Shown piece by piece: positions 12,983 to 18,149 of a stretch of DNA of 64,000 nucleotides. The first letter of the stretch is position 1, and each line of letters opens with the position of its first letter. The position numbers were made by a program, and so were the translations under genes. Location: NCBI RefSeq assembly GCF_003345355.1, contig NZ_QQNB01000001.1:310001-374000 (forward strand), written 5' to 3'. The notes under the pieces were generated by a model. That model did not search any database. It had not been told where the DNA came from and was given only the letters and a program-made list of their open reading frames with translations. The stretch comes from Sphingomonas aracearum (lineage in GTDB: Bacteria > Pseudomonadota > Alphaproteobacteria > Sphingomonadales > Sphingomonadaceae).

Positions 12983-13042
12983 GAAGTTTGGGTATACCGC
13001 GTCCCCTTTGAACGACGACGGGCATTGATAATGGGAACTCCC

Positions 13043-14125
13043 ATGACCGACAGCCTCATCAAGACCGCCGCCGCCCAGCCGGTGGACACCTCCAACCGCA
13101 AGGCCGAGCTGCTTTCGAAGCAGGTCAAGCATATCGACATCAAGAGCTTCGACGCGCGCCCGATCGTGGACGCGATGAGCGACATGAGCTTCACCAGCCG
13201 CGATCTCGGCCGTGCGACCAAGATCTACAACGAGATGCTGGCCGACAAGGACTGCACCGTGGTGCTGGTGATCGCCGGTTCCACCTCGGCCGGCGGCTGC
13301 ATGGACCTGTATGCGGAGCTCGTCCGCAACAACATGGTCGACTGCATCGTCGCCACCGGCGCGACCATCGTCGACATGGATTTCTTCGAGGGCCTCGGCC
13401 ACAAGCACTATCAGGCGCTGGAAATCCCCGACGACGACACGCTCCGCTCGCTGTACATCGACCGCATCTACGACACGTATATCGACGAGGAAGCGCTCCA
13501 GAACGTCGACCACACGATCTTCGAGATCGCGGAGTCGCTGGAGCCGAAGGCTTATTCCAGCCGCGCCTTTATCCGCGAGATGGGCAAGTACCTCGTCGAG
13601 CACGGCAAAAAGGAGAACAGCCTCGTCAAGCTCGCCTATGAGCATGACGTGCCGATCTTCTGCCCGGCGTTCGTGGACTCGTCGGCCGGCTTCGGCCTGG
13701 TGAAGCACCAGGTGGATGCCGCCAAGGCGGGCCGTCCGTACCTGATGATCGATGCGGTGGCGGACTTCCGCGAGCTCACGCAGATCAAAATCGAGGCGGG
13801 CACCACCGGCCTCCTGATGATCGGCGGCGGCGTGCCGAAGAACTTCATCCAGGACACAGTCGTTTGCGCCGAGATCCTCGGCCATGACGATGTGGCGGTG
13901 CACAAGTACGCCGTGCAGATCACCGTCGCCGACGTGCGCGACGGCGCCTGCTCCTCCTCCACGCTGCAGGAGGCGGCGAGCTGGGGTAAGGTGAACACCG
14001 GCATCGAGCAGATGGTGTTCGCGGAAGCGGGCTCGGTGATGCCGCTGCTGGCGAGTGACGCCTATCATCGCGGTCACTGGAAGGACCGGGCGAAGCGCGG
14101 CTGGGCTAAGTTGTTCGCAGCCTAA
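13043..14125 (+). CDS. Deoxyhypusine synthase-like protein, probable homospermidine synthase
   Basis: 360 residues of the deoxyhypusine synthase family: NAD-binding AGSTSAGG at 79-85 and the catalytic Lys266 in GGGVPKNF, the lysine that carries the aminobutyl group. Bacteria lack eIF5A, so the acceptor must differ; known bacterial members act on polyamines, making homospermidine or related compounds. The upstream decarboxylase would supply putrescine, and sphingomonads are rich in sym-homospermidine, so that product is favoured (inference). An in-frame ATG at 13031 is an alternative start. The hairpin array at 14131-14226 follows. Confidence 0.88.
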   Translation: MTDSLIKTAAAQPVDTSNRKAELLSKQVKHIDIKSFDARPIVDAMSDMSFTSRDLGRATKIYNEMLADKDCTVVLVIAGSTSAGGCMDLYAELVRNNMVDCIVATGATIVDMDFFEGLGHKHYQALEIPDDDTLRSLYIDRIYDTYIDEEALQNVDHTIFEIAESLEPKAYSSRAFIREMGKYLVEHGKKENSLVKLAYEHDVPIFCPAFVDSSAGFGLVKHQVDAAKAGRPYLMIDAVADFRELTQIKIEAGTTGLLMIGGGVPKNFIQDTVVCAEILGHDDVAVHKYAVQITVADVRDGACSSSTLQEAASWGKVNTGIEQMVFAEAGSVMPLLASDAYHRGHWKDRAKRGWAKLFAA

Positions 14126-14130
14126 TCGCA

Positions 14131-14226
14131 CGCGGGTAGCGCAAGCTACCCGCGAGACGATGCAGGCCGGCCGGCGCGGGGGTGCAGACCCCCGCGTCCG
14201 ACGTCACGGGACTTGCTCCCGTGACG
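14131..14226. repeat. Array of three perfect hairpins
   Basis: Three near-adjacent perfect stem-loops: CGCGGGTAGC-gcaa-GCTACCCGCG (14131-14154), a nine-pair stem CGCGGGGGT-gcag-ACCCCCGCG (14175-14196), and a ten-pair stem CGTCACGGGA-cttgc-TCCCGTGACG (14202-14226). None has a T-run. They sit directly after the polyamine gene stop and before the palindrome at 14246. They could end or protect the polyamine mRNA, or be mobile palindromes. Confidence 0.75.
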
Positions 14227-14245
14227 GCCTGTCCAGACCTCCCAC

Positions 14246-14279
14246 GTCACCCCGGCCTCGTGCCGGGGTCCACGTCACC
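14246..14279 (+). repeat. REP-like palindrome, left copy
   Basis: Core CCCCGGC-ctcgt-GCCGGGG preceded by GTCA and followed by TCCAC. An inverted near-identical copy (one loop difference) lies at 14453-14483, so the pair brackets the broken GIY-YIG gene. Confidence 0.8.
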
Positions 14280-14281
14280 GC

Positions 14282-14433
14282 TTAACCTTGCATCAGCGGC
14301 TCTAACCCGAGAGTTACCGCCAAGTCCTCCCACTTAGGACTGTCGCGCTCGATCAGGTTCGACGTTACACCAACATACAACGTCCCATTAACCCGCTCGC
14401 TAGGATGTAGACGCAAGGCTGGCGTTCCCTCAC
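14282..14433 (-). pseudogene. Broken GIY-YIG endonuclease family gene
   Basis: On the minus strand the first frame reads RQPCVYILAS, the usual start of small GIY-YIG proteins. A frameshift near 14391 moves the match to NGTLYVGVTSNL, the GxYxG part, and this continues directly into LIERDSPKWEDLA...LGLEPL, the normal C-terminus. The middle part of about 55 residues (with the catalytic Arg and Glu region) is missing, so there is a frameshift and an internal deletion. Only about 50 codons remain. It sits exactly between inverted REP-like palindromes. The reading relies on remembered family motifs. Confidence 0.75.
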
Positions 14434-14452
14434 GCTGTCAAGCACGCGGCAC

Positions 14453-14483
14453 GGTGGACCCCGGCACAAGGCCGGGGTGACGG
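14453..14483 (-). repeat. REP-like palindrome, right copy (inverted)
   Basis: GGTGGACCCCGGCACAAGG and following CCGGGGTGACGG: the reverse complement of the copy at 14246-14279 apart from one loop base. With it, it frames a 245-base unit. Confidence 0.8.
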
Positions 14484-14494
14484 TTGGACACACA

Positions 14495-15229
14495 TCACCC
14501 GCCCCCGAACGGCGAAAAGTCCGTCCCACGGTCGAACACGTCCACCCCCTCGCGCCGCTTGAGCCACCCCACCACGCCATACGTCACCGGCGTCAGCAGC
14601 ACTTCCCAGCCGACCTTCAGCACGAACTGGCTGCCCATTACCATCAGCATGGCGGAGACCGGCCAGTCCGGCGCGCCCCAGAAGGCGAGCGGGTAGAAGA
14701 TCAGGCTATCCAGCCCCTCGCCGACGACCGTCGAGCCGATCGTGCGCATCCACAGAAAGCGACCGCCAGTCGCCACCTTCATGCGCGCCAGCACGAAGCT
14801 GTTGGCGAACTCGCCCGCCCAGAAGGCGCAGATCGAGGCGAAGACGATGCGCGGCACCTGCCCGAACACCTGCTCATAGGCCGCCTGCCCGGTCCAGCCG
14901 GCGTCTGGTGGCAGCGCGACCACCACGGCGGACATGAACACCATGAACAGCATCGCGCCGAAGCCCGCCCAGATGCACCGCCGCGCGCGGGCATAGCCGT
15001 ATACCTCGGTCAGCACGTCGCCGAGCACGTAGCTGACGGGAAAGAACAGGATTCCCGCGCCGAACGGCCACAAGCCGACGAACGGCAGGTCGATCACCGC
15101 CCGCTTGCCCGCGCCGATCACGTTGGACAGCAAGAGGATGACGACGAACGCCACCATCACGAAATCGAAGTAGCGGAAGCTGCCCCCCGCCACTTCCCGC
15201 GCCGTTACCGGCCTTGGCTCGTCCATCAT
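14495..15229 (-). CDS. Queuosine precursor transporter (YhhQ family)
   Basis: 244 residues with about six hydrophobic segments. The blocks FPVSYVLGDVLTEVYGYARA and FWAGEFANSFVLA and the C-terminal GWEVLLTPVTY match the YhhQ/vitamin-uptake-like family that imports queuosine precursors such as preQ0 or preQ1. A GAGGTGGG ribosome site precedes the first ATG. It lies 46 bases behind the TonB receptor on the same strand, with a strong 12-pair hairpin between them. queA elsewhere in the window (29384) shows that the queuosine pathway exists, at least in part. Confidence 0.92.
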   Translation of the reverse strand: MMDEPRPVTAREVAGGSFRYFDFVMVAFVVILLLSNVIGAGKRAVIDLPFVGLWPFGAGILFFPVSYVLGDVLTEVYGYARARRCIWAGFGAMLFMVFMSAVVVALPPDAGWTGQAAYEQVFGQVPRIVFASICAFWAGEFANSFVLARMKVATGGRFLWMRTIGSTVVGEGLDSLIFYPLAFWGAPDWPVSAMLMVMGSQFVLKVGWEVLLTPVTYGVVGWLKRREGVDVFDRGTDFSPFGGG

Positions 15230-15234
15230 CCCAC

Positions 15235-15265
15235 CTCGCCCGCGCGATCATGCCGCGCGGGCGAG
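15235..15265. repeat. Perfect 12-pair hairpin between the TonB receptor and the YhhQ gene
   Basis: CTCGCCCGCGCG-atcatgc-CGCGCGGGCGAG. It falls just after the receptor stop and just before the ribosome site of the transporter gene. There is no T-run, so it may weaken readthrough or protect the upstream mRNA rather than act as a full terminator. Confidence 0.65.
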
Positions 15266-15275
15266 AGGCGGGCAA

Positions 15276-18149
15276 TCAGAAGAACAGCTTGCGCACGGAC
15301 AGCCGCACCGTGCGGCCGACCGCGTCCCGGTATGCCGGCTGATAATTGATCGGCACCGTGCCGGTTCCATCCGTCACGTCCTGCCGCGTGTTGAGCACGT
15401 TGCGGATGTCGAACGAGACCCGCATGCCCCGCGCCCAGGGGTGCTTGCGCACGAAGCTCAGGTTCCCGCCCAAGTCGTCGAACAGCCGCAGGTTGAACGT
15501 GGTCAGGCTGTCAAAATTCAGCGTGGCCGCGTTGCTCGACGTGCCGCCGAACACCTGGGTCGCGCTCTGATATTCGCCGGTCAGGCGCACGCCGAGGCCG
15601 TTGTTCGAATAGCCGGCCTGCAATTCCAGTTCATGCCGCGGCGTGCCGCTGTCGTTGCGGGTGGCGGCGCCGTTCAGATTGTCGAGCACGGGCACGCCGT
15701 CGCGCACCACCACTTCGTCCTCGAAATGCCAGGTGTGGTAAAAAGCGAAGTTGATCCGCCCGCCGCCCTGCCCGCCGCCGAAGCCTCCGCCGCCACCACG
15801 GAAGCCACCGCCACCCGGACCGCCGCCAAAGCCGCCGCGTCGCTCACCGCCACCGGCGGAGCGCCCTTCGCCGGCCGGCCGCTCGCCACCAGCGGTGGGC
15901 GGCGCGCCGTCGGGTGCCCCCTGCGCTCCCCCCTGCCCGCCGGGCCGGCGCTGGCCGGGAAAGGTCATGCCCGCAAACGGGTTCGGCCCGGTGCCGGCGC
16001 GGAATGCCTCCAGCTGCTTCTGAATCCTGTTTTTGATTGGCTTGGAGAAGTTCACGCCCCAGCGCAGCTGGGACTGGCGCTCCGACTGGAAGTTCACCGG
16101 CCGGGCGTCATAGCTCAGCAGCGCGCCGTTCGCATCGCGCACGAACCGCTGCGGAAACGCCGCCTCGATCGCTGCGGTGGGCGACGGGAAGCTGGCGATC
16201 GGATTGTCGCTGGACTGGCGCGTGTAATCCACCTGCAGGCGGAAGTCGGTGCCGCTGAACGGCTGGAGGTTGAACCCGGCCTTGAACGCGTGCCGGTTCT
16301 CCGCGACCAGCCCGGCATTGCCGCCGCTGAGCCGGGTCACGTCCACCGTCGTGCCGCGCACATAATCGAAGATGCGCGCGTTGGGCGTCGAGACCAGCGG
16401 GTTGCCCAGCTGCTGCGGGCTCGGCGCATTCTCCTCGTCGGTGAAGGAGACGAGGAGCCGAAGCGGGACGATCGGCGACCAGTTCAGCCCATAGCCATAG
16501 GTGCTGAGCGTGCCGAAGTCGTTGAGCTGCTCGATCCGGTAGTTGCCGTTAAGCGAGAGGTTGCCGAGCGCGGACAGGAAATCCCGTGAGCGGCTGGTGA
16601 TCGGCAGGTCGATGTTCACCTGCCCGTTGCCGATCGAGCGCGTCACGTCGCTCGTGCTCGCCACGCCGAGGCGGAAGGCGCGGCTGTCCAGGTCGTTGTT
16701 GGCGTAGCCCACCCGCAGGGTGGTGGAGGCGTCGCCCGCCGGCAGGTGGAACAGGGGCCCGTTGACGAGCCCGGTGACGTCCACGTCCTGCGACACCGAT
16801 CGCGCTGTGTTGGCGACCCCCGGCGTGACGAGCGCGGGGCTGAGCGGGCCGAACGGGTTCACGTTCGGATCATTGGCGTTGATCGCCGCCTGCAGGCCGG
16901 TCGCGTTCACGTTCACGTCGGTGAACGTCTCGCTGGTGTTGCGGTCGTAATTGCCCGTCAGCGTCCAGCGCCAGCGCCCGAAGGTGCCGTTCGCGCCGAG
17001 GCCCAGATGCGCGTTCAGCGCCTCGTTGCTCTGGCCGAGCACATCGTCCGCGACATAGCGGTTCAGCGTCACCGCCTGCCCGAACGGAGAGAAGCGATTG
17101 CCCGCGGGCAGCGCCACGCTGATCCCCGCCAGCCCCTGGTCGGACTGGCTGCTGGTCGTCTCCACACGGGCGTTCAGCGTCACCGGCACGTTGCCGATCA
17201 CGCGGCTGTAGACCGTGTTCGCGGAGAAGTTCTGCGTCGCCGCCGTCAGCGAGCGATAGGGCGTCAGGTCCGTGACGTTGGCCGTGCCCGCGGCATAGCC
17301 GCCCAGCGTGCCCGTGCCGCTGGCCGGCACGCCTGCCACCGTGATCGGCCGCCCCGCCGCCGCGCTCAAAGCATCGATCTGTGCCAGGCCCGCGCCCGGC
17401 GTGATGTTGCCTGCAAGGTCGAACACGCCGCTAGTCGAGCGCCCGATCAGGTCCCGCTCGCTTTCCAGCAGCCCGGACGTTTGCTGATAATCCAGGTTCA
17501 GCGTCATGCGGCCGTTGCGATTGATCTTCAGCAAGCCGAGCTGTCCGCGTGGCGTCACCGTGCCGCCATCGGTCGCCGCCTGGCCCGAGACTTCGGTGGT
17601 CACCGCACGAAAGCGCCGGCGCAAAACGAAGTTCACCACCCGCTGATCGGCGGCATAGCCGTATTTCAGCGCGACCTCTTCCGGCAGGATTTCCACGCGG
17701 GCAATCGCCTCAGTGGGCAGGTCGCGGATCTCGGCGAAGCTCGAGATGCGGCGGCCGTCGAGCAGCACCACCGGTGCGCCGCCCCGACCACGGCCGCTGG
17801 AGGTCTGCGGCGACAATTCGGTGAGCAGGTCGTTGATCGAGCTCACGCCATAGGATCGGATGTCCGCCGGGCTCAGCGTCTGCTCGGGCGGAATGTCGCC
17901 GACCACGGAGCCGGGCAGCTTCTGGCCCTGCACCACAATTTCTTCGCTTTCCGCCTCCACCGCGGTGCCGCCAGCCGTTCCCTCTGGCGCCGGATCGGCG
18001 GCCGGCGCGGTCTGGCCGGCGGTGGCCGCCGTCTGCGCGGCCGCCGCCTGAGGCGGAACGACCTGCGGCGCGGTCGTCTGCGCCCATGCCGTTTGCGCCG
18101 AGACGCTCGCCATCATCGCCCCGATCAGGAGCCCCCTGTTACGCACCAT
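15276..18149 (-). CDS. TonB-dependent outer membrane receptor
   Basis: 957 residues from the ATG at 18149, which has a CGGAGG ribosome site. Signal peptide to about residue 24 (ending AWAQ), an Ala/Pro/Thr-rich spacer, a TonB box-like EIVVQG, a plug domain with VVLLDGRRI and a long beta-barrel ending in KLFF, the C-terminal aromatic needed for Bam insertion. Unusual is a run very rich in glycine, proline and arginine encoded at about 15755-15990 within a predicted extracellular loop. The substrate is unknown; the adjacent YhhQ gene hints at but does not prove a nucleobase-type ligand. Confidence 0.93.
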   Translation of the reverse strand: MVRNRGLLIGAMMASVSAQTAWAQTTAPQVVPPQAAAAQTAATAGQTAPAADPAPEGTAGGTAVEAESEEIVVQGQKLPGSVVGDIPPEQTLSPADIRSYGVSSINDLLTELSPQTSSGRGRGGAPVVLLDGRRISSFAEIRDLPTEAIARVEILPEEVALKYGYAADQRVVNFVLRRRFRAVTTEVSGQAATDGGTVTPRGQLGLLKINRNGRMTLNLDYQQTSGLLESERDLIGRSTSGVFDLAGNITPGAGLAQIDALSAAAGRPITVAGVPASGTGTLGGYAAGTANVTDLTPYRSLTAATQNFSANTVYSRVIGNVPVTLNARVETTSSQSDQGLAGISVALPAGNRFSPFGQAVTLNRYVADDVLGQSNEALNAHLGLGANGTFGRWRWTLTGNYDRNTSETFTDVNVNATGLQAAINANDPNVNPFGPLSPALVTPGVANTARSVSQDVDVTGLVNGPLFHLPAGDASTTLRVGYANNDLDSRAFRLGVASTSDVTRSIGNGQVNIDLPITSRSRDFLSALGNLSLNGNYRIEQLNDFGTLSTYGYGLNWSPIVPLRLLVSFTDEENAPSPQQLGNPLVSTPNARIFDYVRGTTVDVTRLSGGNAGLVAENRHAFKAGFNLQPFSGTDFRLQVDYTRQSSDNPIASFPSPTAAIEAAFPQRFVRDANGALLSYDARPVNFQSERQSQLRWGVNFSKPIKNRIQKQLEAFRAGTGPNPFAGMTFPGQRRPGGQGGAQGAPDGAPPTAGGERPAGEGRSAGGGERRGGFGGGPGGGGFRGGGGGFGGGQGGGRINFAFYHTWHFEDEVVVRDGVPVLDNLNGAATRNDSGTPRHELELQAGYSNNGLGVRLTGEYQSATQVFGGTSSNAATLNFDSLTTFNLRLFDDLGGNLSFVRKHPWARGMRVSFDIRNVLNTRQDVTDGTGTVPINYQPAYRDAVGRTVRLSVRKLFF

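Follow-up and report, generated by a model that had tools for sequence, protein, structure and literature searches.

A Broken GIY-YIG Gene Between Inverted CGTC-Type REPs in Sphingomonas aracearum Suggests Small Nucleases as Partner Enzymes of a Palindromic Repeat Family

Introduction

Why should the remains of a small GIY-YIG nuclease gene lie exactly between two inverted, nearly identical palindromes? The window in which they do so (the whole stretch of 64,000 nucleotides of Sphingomonas aracearum DNA analyzed here) bears on the CGTC superfamily of REPs. As a published survey describes them, these repeats are widespread, mostly in alphaproteobacteria, include dRS3 of Neisseria, and carry a CGTC (or TGTC, CCTC) tag, a stem of 8–9 bp, a loop of 4–5 bases and a CCA-like tail; the survey reports that they are not associated with transposase genes and that a dedicated transposase is apparently lacking (Di Nocera 2013, PMC3733652). 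CGTC REPs had no known enzyme in 2013.

The window holds a dead nuclease gene between REPs of its relatives' kind. We consider it likely that the enzyme recognizes and cuts its cognate REP, and that REP pairs are copied while the gene remains a fixed source. In such a scheme the nuclease would recognize its own REP type, which is most likely presented as a single-stranded DNA hairpin, and would cut at the recognized hairpin; less surely, cutting would let REP pairs (REP-spacer-inverted REP, about 80–105 bp) be copied to new places. The REP pairs would thus be non-autonomous mobile units and the nuclease gene, mostly fixed in place, would supply the activity, just as RAYTs do for GTAG REPs. More generally, the sequence comparisons below suggest that small GIY-YIG nucleases are partner enzymes of a large bacterial palindromic repeat family.

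Results

The Palindrome Pair in the Window

The left palindrome (14246..14272, plus strand, GTCACCCCGGCCTCGTGCCGGGGTCCA) and the right one (14455..14481, minus strand, GTCACCCCGGCCTTGTGCCGGGGTCCA), inverted with respect to the left, are 27 bases long each and differ by a single base, in the loop; both have their tags (GTC) outward and their tails (CCA) inward. The first-pass annotation of this DNA had described near-identical palindromes in opposite orientation, and we find them within seven bases of where it placed them. The core CCCCGGC-n-GCCGGGG occurs twice in the window, against a shuffle mean of 0.12 (one of 100 shuffles reaches two), and each REP forms an 8-bp DNA hairpin of −10.4 kcal/mol on folding, with z about −4.3. 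The window's own genome (G000) carries 16 exact copies of a stricter REP pattern, the reversed-pattern control giving 0, and 18 copies of this type, which we call type a, by a looser one.

Both copies show the C-GTC tag, 8-bp stem, 5-base loop and CCA tail of a CGTC REP, and they share with the CGTC REPs of the survey the tag, the 8-bp stem, the loop, the CCA tail and the arrangement in inverted pairs (PMC3733652). They differ in the second stem pair, which is C-G in both window copies (the first being A-T), whereas that source gives A-T; it treats A-T pairs at the first two positions as nearly invariable, with no defining rule attached (PMC3733652). Other REPs of the genome start GTCAT. A search of positions 13000–15500 against Rfam at gathering thresholds gave zero matches. 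A further, symmetric palindrome at about 14203–14227 was considered as a fused REP and rejected: it is common to relatives without REPs there, and is thus more likely the terminator of the deoxyhypusine synthase gene.

The Decayed Gene and Its Neighbors

Between the two REPs, on the minus strand, lies what remains of a small GIY-YIG nuclease gene belonging to the type-a subclade (14282..14440, the high end being approximate), with VYILAS in one frame and NGTLYVGVTSN plus LIERDSPKWEDLAVTLGLEPL in another. Alignment to four intact relatives shows a frameshift of one base, in the N-terminal part, and the loss of about 200 bp from the interior, a deletion whose two ends fall in a repeated AACCTGATCG; the C-terminal LIERDSPKWEDLAVTLGLEPL is retained, and this C-terminus places the gene with the subclade whose intact members bear REPs of the same kind. 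A Pfam search of the gene fragments recognized no family, and a profile built from the gene's relatives matches them with E 1.6e-5. The earlier description of a frameshifted, internally deleted GIY-YIG frame between the palindromes is borne out, and so is its view of this copy as a decayed example. Compared by eye with the four relatives, which sit at other positions, similarity ends at the outer ends of the REPs.

The neighbors are a deoxyhypusine synthase family gene (PF01916; 12797..14125, plus strand, ORF coordinates as listed, with an approximate start) and a putative vitamin uptake transporter gene, Vut_1 (PF02592; 14495..15229, minus strand). The former was matched in 52 of 61 genomes of the genus, and the 30 loci compared around it yielded no clean version of the empty site that the first-pass annotation had hoped to find in relatives, because Vut_1 adjoins the deoxyhypusine synthase gene only at the window's own locus. 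REPs of several types lie within 700 bp downstream of this gene at four of the 30 loci (the window, 14125–14246, and L194, L199 and L219). The best pair of loci downstream of the gene, L194 and L197, gave no clean REP insertion boundary, since the REP pair there sits inside a larger inverted repeat.

Small GIY-YIG Genes and REPs Lie Together

The survey of flanking REPs took in 80 loci from named genomes (the best 80 of 123 relatives), 30 loci and 100 stretches around further matches in the 61 genomes of the window's genus (among the matches listed), and the plasmid-record, deoxyhypusine synthase and G000 loci; eleven later matches stand outside the counts. The 241 profile hits reduce to 233 distinct ones: 178 complete members of a “VYI” subfamily, 30 UPF0213-like members (named by their GHT motif, without family search) and 25 fragments or others, the last left out of the main counts (REPs on both sides in 4, on one side in 7, on neither in 14). 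As a control we used the 1701 other ORFs that these loci contain with 100 codons or more; length was the only criterion, so that some are not genes.

REPs lie within 150 bp on both sides of 76 of the 178 “VYI” genes, compared with 26 of the 1701 control ORFs (odds ratio 48, p 1e-62) and none of the 30 UPF0213-like genes. The simplest alternative, chance or a general preference of REPs for intergenic gaps with nothing special about GIY-YIG genes, can draw on the 272 control ORFs that have a REP on at least one side, next to 129 “VYI” genes and, again, 0 of 30 UPF0213-like ones; it is already refuted by the both-side and subfamily counts, does not account for the specificity of REP type by subclade (below), and has practically no probability left in our judgment. 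Intact GIY-YIG genes thus have flanking palindromes far more often than other genes, as the first-pass annotation had predicted, although the link that it drew for GIY-YIG genes in general holds for the “VYI” subfamily and fails for the UPF0213-like one. Neither of the two outcomes that it had named as refuting its idea was obtained. By the strict REP definition, 49 complete “VYI” genes have REPs on neither side. Among the 76, the nearest upstream and downstream REPs are oriented as in the window in 43 and share a core type in 58. A test free of any REP definition, scoring the two flanks as inverted repeats of each other (score at least 14), finds them in 128 of 174 genes with their own flanks, in 25 of 174 with swapped flanks, and in 3 of 29 UPF0213-like genes.

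Judged by eye, the pairing extends with other stems to other classes and phyla (Lysobacter, Bradyrhizobium, Seongchinamella, Nubsella and several MAGs). The plasmid collection matched in 34 records, of which 11 were examined for flanking REPs: close REPs lie on both sides in Neisseria gonorrhoeae, Sinorhizobium meliloti, Shinella, Azospirillum, Aeromonas, Sphingobium and Novosphingobium, some of these seven being judged by eye or by the inverted-repeat flank test instead of the strict finder. Photobacterium and two Rhizobium records show REPs near the gene only at 174–181 bp downstream, and the Planktothrix gene has imperfect repeats around it.

Several of these loci have features of their own. 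The nuclease gene of the Planktothrix agardhii plasmid (L229) has an MmeI-like restriction enzyme on one side and the DISARM gene drmA on the other, the repeats around it being of the GTCATTCTGAG type, and in Photobacterium sp. GJ3 (L232, 3450–5786) 15 REPs, in near-identical pairs, occupy about 2.3 kb downstream of the gene. At L183, L162, L109, L123 and L128, the nuclease reading frame ends within the downstream REP, and the tail of the protein (e.g., MDSRLRGND) is thus translated palindrome.

REP Type Follows the Nuclease Subclade

The protein tree holds 96 complete copies from 49 genomes of the genus, 70 of them with one of five common REP labels (the other 26 uncounted). The labels change 12 times on it, whereas 200 shuffles average 41 and never fall below 34; with labels permuted only within each genome, the mean is 29 and the lowest of 500 is 19, none of the 500 being as low as 12. 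In 16 of 18 genomes with more than one labeled copy, different REP types lie beside the copies, and 116 of 121 copy pairs at least 75% identical have at least one flank in common. Since the nuclease genes mostly stay in place (below), this congruence is partly shared ancestry, and the argument therefore rests on the copy-number and swap tests: REP copy number across a whole genome cannot be explained by shared flanks.

We counted REP types a, b and c in the 61 genomes, with reversed-pattern controls at zero throughout and the two flanking copies subtracted; the p values ignore the relatedness of these genomes. Type-a REPs have a median of 21 in genomes with the cognate gene (n = 12) and 1 in those without (n = 49; p 5e-5), type-b REPs 36 (n = 17) and 3 (n = 44; p 7e-4), and type-c REPs 3 (n = 10) and 0 (n = 51; p 5e-5). 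Each of the three nuclease subclades tested thus goes with the genome-wide copy number of its own REP type. Of six mismatched gene-REP pairs, five give p 0.60–0.85, and the sixth, type-a genes with type-c REPs, is borderline and weak at p 0.049. The subclade sets were read off the tree, and genomes whose matches were left out count among those without the gene; so do, for type a, G031 (its type-a gene was found later) and G003 and G057 (with CGG-type genes outside the type-a clades). Two genomes, G003 with 102 copies and G040 with 66, are rich in type-a REPs and have no type-a gene among their copies examined.

A change of subclade at one shared position goes with a swap of REP populations. 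At position 3, the genomes of one subclade (G023, G002 and G054) have 101, 34 and 116 type-g REPs and 0, 0 and 0 of type h, whereas those of the other (G034, G018, G024 and G010) have 0, 0, 0 and 1 of type g and 152, 105, 60 and 2 of type h. Beyond these seven genomes type g does not exceed 21, and type h is zero except in G058 (60 REPs; such a gene is present there in broken form) and G053 (43, with another nuclease flanked by h REPs). The picture at position 1, where three of the 20 genomes were assigned by their place in the tree (the label being absent or odd), is less sharp: type d numbers 4–134 in the 14 genomes of one subclade versus 2–10 in the six of the other (p 0.0015), and 0–30 in the 41 genomes without an examined position-1 copy. 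The six exceed these 41 in type d (p 0.02), which argues against strict specificity; the reverse test at this position, for type i, was not significant at p 0.06, with G008 and G034 having type i together with the other subclade.

The Enzyme

All 59 aligned members of the subfamily match PF01541, and Y, Y, R, E and N are conserved at 99–100% in 175 sequences; in the GIY-YIG family, the conserved Tyr, Tyr, Arg and Glu are catalytic residues. In pairs chosen at 80–99% identity, pN/pS is below 1 in 89 of 89 (median 0.18), a pattern that points to purifying selection on the nuclease genes. The predicted structure is a bare GIY-YIG domain (pLDDT 89) whose nearest structures are UPF0213, Slx1, UvrC and I-TevI, with middling scores. 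The UPF0213 structure 1zg2 is the nearest solved one by sequence and comes first in the Foldseek list, and VIA-align of the nuclease model puts Slx1 first and UPF0213 second, tied; yet the UPF0213-like members, for all this structural nearness, are the ones without flanking REPs. Seven of 57 members run through PADLOC match one PDC-S14 model weakly, two match another, one matches UzuA and one PtuB.

The gonococcal GIY-YIG homologue, which lies among dRS3-type REPs, shares 65% identity over 85 residues with L003, one of the intact nucleases of G000, and 59% with L273. We assume it to be the published Ssn. A 2025 study, reportedly in Nature Communications, is said to describe Ssn as site-specific single-strand nucleases of the GIY-YIG superfamily that go with a repeated sequence, NTS: small proteins with a repeated genomic target in Neisseria and many homologues with target sequences of their own. 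The Neisseria enzyme reportedly cuts single strands at the repeated sequence and modulates transformation. Like Ssn as reported, the enzymes considered here are small GIY-YIG proteins with cognate repeats, their cutting at REPs being putative. From the pairing and from this parallel, the enzyme probably recognizes the REP hairpin, in single-stranded DNA; for the single-strand hairpin in particular, we lean on the work reported for Neisseria.

REP Pairs Are Scattered and the Gene Stays in Place

Over all loci, 194 neighboring REPs lie within 200 bp of each other: 138 in the +− arrangement, 48 in −+, 5 in −− and 3 in ++. The spacers of the +− pairs cluster at 28, 35, 40, 42 and 52 bp. Recurring spacers, one dominant orientation and the replacement of one REP type by another together look like spread by copying.

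They also bear on the most serious alternative, namely that the nuclease recognizes REPs without spreading them and acts on REP-marked DNA that is incoming or exposed as single strands (for example by gating transformation), with selection keeping the REPs. The same pairing, copy-number and swap evidence would follow from it, and it gains from the gonococcal homologue among dRS3-type REPs and from the role in transformation that Ssn is said to have. Set against it are the recurring spacer lengths and the single dominant orientation of the pairs, as well as the exchange of one REP type for another that accompanies a change of subclade. We regard it as possible and as a good deal less probable than the reading of the enzyme as a source of spreading REP pairs. 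Spread of REP pairs by the enzyme, as opposed to mere policing of REP-bearing DNA, is put forward more weakly than recognition itself.

If REPs are copied, a RAYT or other IS200-type transposase might do the moving, the GIY-YIG gene being a bystander or passenger; GTAG REPs are moved by RAYTs (PMC3733652, PMC8049555). In this genus the idea is largely refuted, and we hold it to be very improbable: a search covering the Y1_Tnp class, the RAYT type, found it in four of the 61 genomes (G006, G010, G033 and G043) and neither in G000 nor in the genomes with the highest REP counts, and the lack of association with transposase genes that the survey reports points the same way (PMC3733652).

The nuclease gene itself shows another pattern. 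The 96 complete copies of the genus fall into 29 positions, with 20 copies in 19 genomes at one and 20 in 20 at another, and since most copies are at shared positions, the gene is mainly inherited in place. The nuclease gene mostly stays put; REP pairs are scattered. Of the RAYT-like mobile unit that the first-pass annotation had envisaged, the pairing, the subclade-specific REP type and the decayed copy are supported; the hopping of gene and palindromes together is not supported as stated, this candidate being weakened by the synteny of the copies.

We looked for traces of insertion at the REP pairs. No target-site duplication stood above twice chance (lengths 3–9, offsets 0–2), and no clean insertion boundary was found at the loci compared. 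Of 127 REP pairs, 88% have C before the tag and 92% have G after. Outside these pairs the bases are rich in C on the left side and in G on the right, as in a mirror, a hint of insertion into inverted repeats or of longer degenerate ends. In Azospirillum lipoferum (L230) the nuclease gene lies between sufB and sufC and is absent from the four relatives aligned, and in Shinella it is present versus absent in two relatives; the junctions are not clean in either. At L230 the gene, with REP pairs on either side of it, sits within the suf gene row, and its presence may affect expression of sufC onward.

Two Sphingobium plasmids have, in place of the REP-gene-REP block, a single symmetric palindrome that combines the outer halves of both REPs (with mismatches in one of the plasmids). 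They are what a homing-like unit would predict, in which the block inserts into a symmetric palindrome cut by the nuclease and splits it into two REPs. A scan of 2.46 Mb leans the same way, with five palindromes tagged at both ends, of which four (one from Sphingobium) are REP-like by eye, versus none of the six tailed at both ends. However, a deletion running from the 8-base arm of one REP to the matching arm of the other would leave the same palindrome, two further Sphingobium relatives have neither block nor palindrome, and most nuclease genes do not move. We therefore think homing improbable: the Sphingobium palindrome fits deletion between REP arms, and is less likely a homing target. Such palindromes, symmetric, tagged with GTC at each end and resembling fused REPs, are rare; they were seen at L237 and L238 (the plasmids of Sphingobium TomTYG74 and TomTYG64), L139, L214 and L112.

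Discussion

A fixed gene with traveling repeats invites comparison with the RAYT-REPIN system. The likeness lies in an enzyme gene that is fixed, vertically inherited and matched by its repeats, and in dispersed inverted REP pairs with short, variable spacers (PMC8049555, PMC2817692), RAYT genes likewise being vertically inherited in place and repeat copies likewise being more numerous in genomes that have the enzyme gene (PMC8049555). Unlike that system, which in those sources has a GTAG tag and a tyrosine transposase, the one described here has a CGTC tag and a GIY-YIG nuclease, and the enzymes are unrelated; G000 gave no Y1_Tnp match, and the tag of its REPs is CGTC, not GTAG. The analogy with RAYTs drawn in the first-pass annotation is thus largely right, with one correction: the gene stays and the REPs travel.

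Unlike the survey of CGTC REPs, from whose main text GIY-YIG is absent as a term, we find a nuclease partner (PMC3733652). A full-text literature search (titles, abstract starts and term counts, with bioRxiv and many journals outside it) returned no paper linking GIY-YIG to REPs. The pairing of enzyme and repeat seems to have been described already in the Ssn work. If Ssn is as reported, the pairing is known and the window gene is a decayed member of that kind; what may be new is the connection with CGTC REPs, together with the tests of copy number and the swaps at a single position.

A wider reading, which we offer tentatively and would put at somewhat under an even chance, is that small GIY-YIG nucleases are the engines of the whole CGTC superfamily: each lineage would spread its own REP pairs, a change of specificity would bring a takeover by another REP, the old REPs would decay, and the REP-REPIN arrangement would have arisen twice, on one occasion around an HUH transposase and on the other around a nuclease of an unrelated superfamily. 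Were it true that these nucleases recognize and spread CGTC REPs, the origin of the repeats could be tested with one protein and one oligonucleotide per family, the natural swaps at shared positions showing which proteins to compare, and bacteria would have reached the RAYT-REPIN way of life a second time, independently.

In the window's own genome, five GIY-YIG hits fall in open frames: one UPF0213-like, one in a long frame, taken here as UvrC, and three from the REP-paired subfamily. The last three adjoin three other repeat types (type b at L002, GTCATCCCGGCG at L003, and pairs of GTCATTGCGAGCG at L004), and the tree places none of them in the subclade of the window copy. An intact type-a nuclease was not found in G000, while 18 type-a REPs remain; type a would thus be a REP family whose engine is lost in this genome, the nuclease broken and its repeats left behind.

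Similar pairings may involve further repeats. At L004 (G000:C7, about 880134–880349) and L184, the nuclease is flanked on both sides by pairs of an imperfect repeat, GTCATTGCGAGCG...GAAGCAATCC, and the copies at L105, L122 and L103 adjoin repeats of the GTCATTCTGA or GTCATTGCGAG type; given these flanks, the nuclease-repeat pairing may extend to GTCATTGCGAGCG-, GTCATTCTGA- and GTCATTGCGAG-type repeats.
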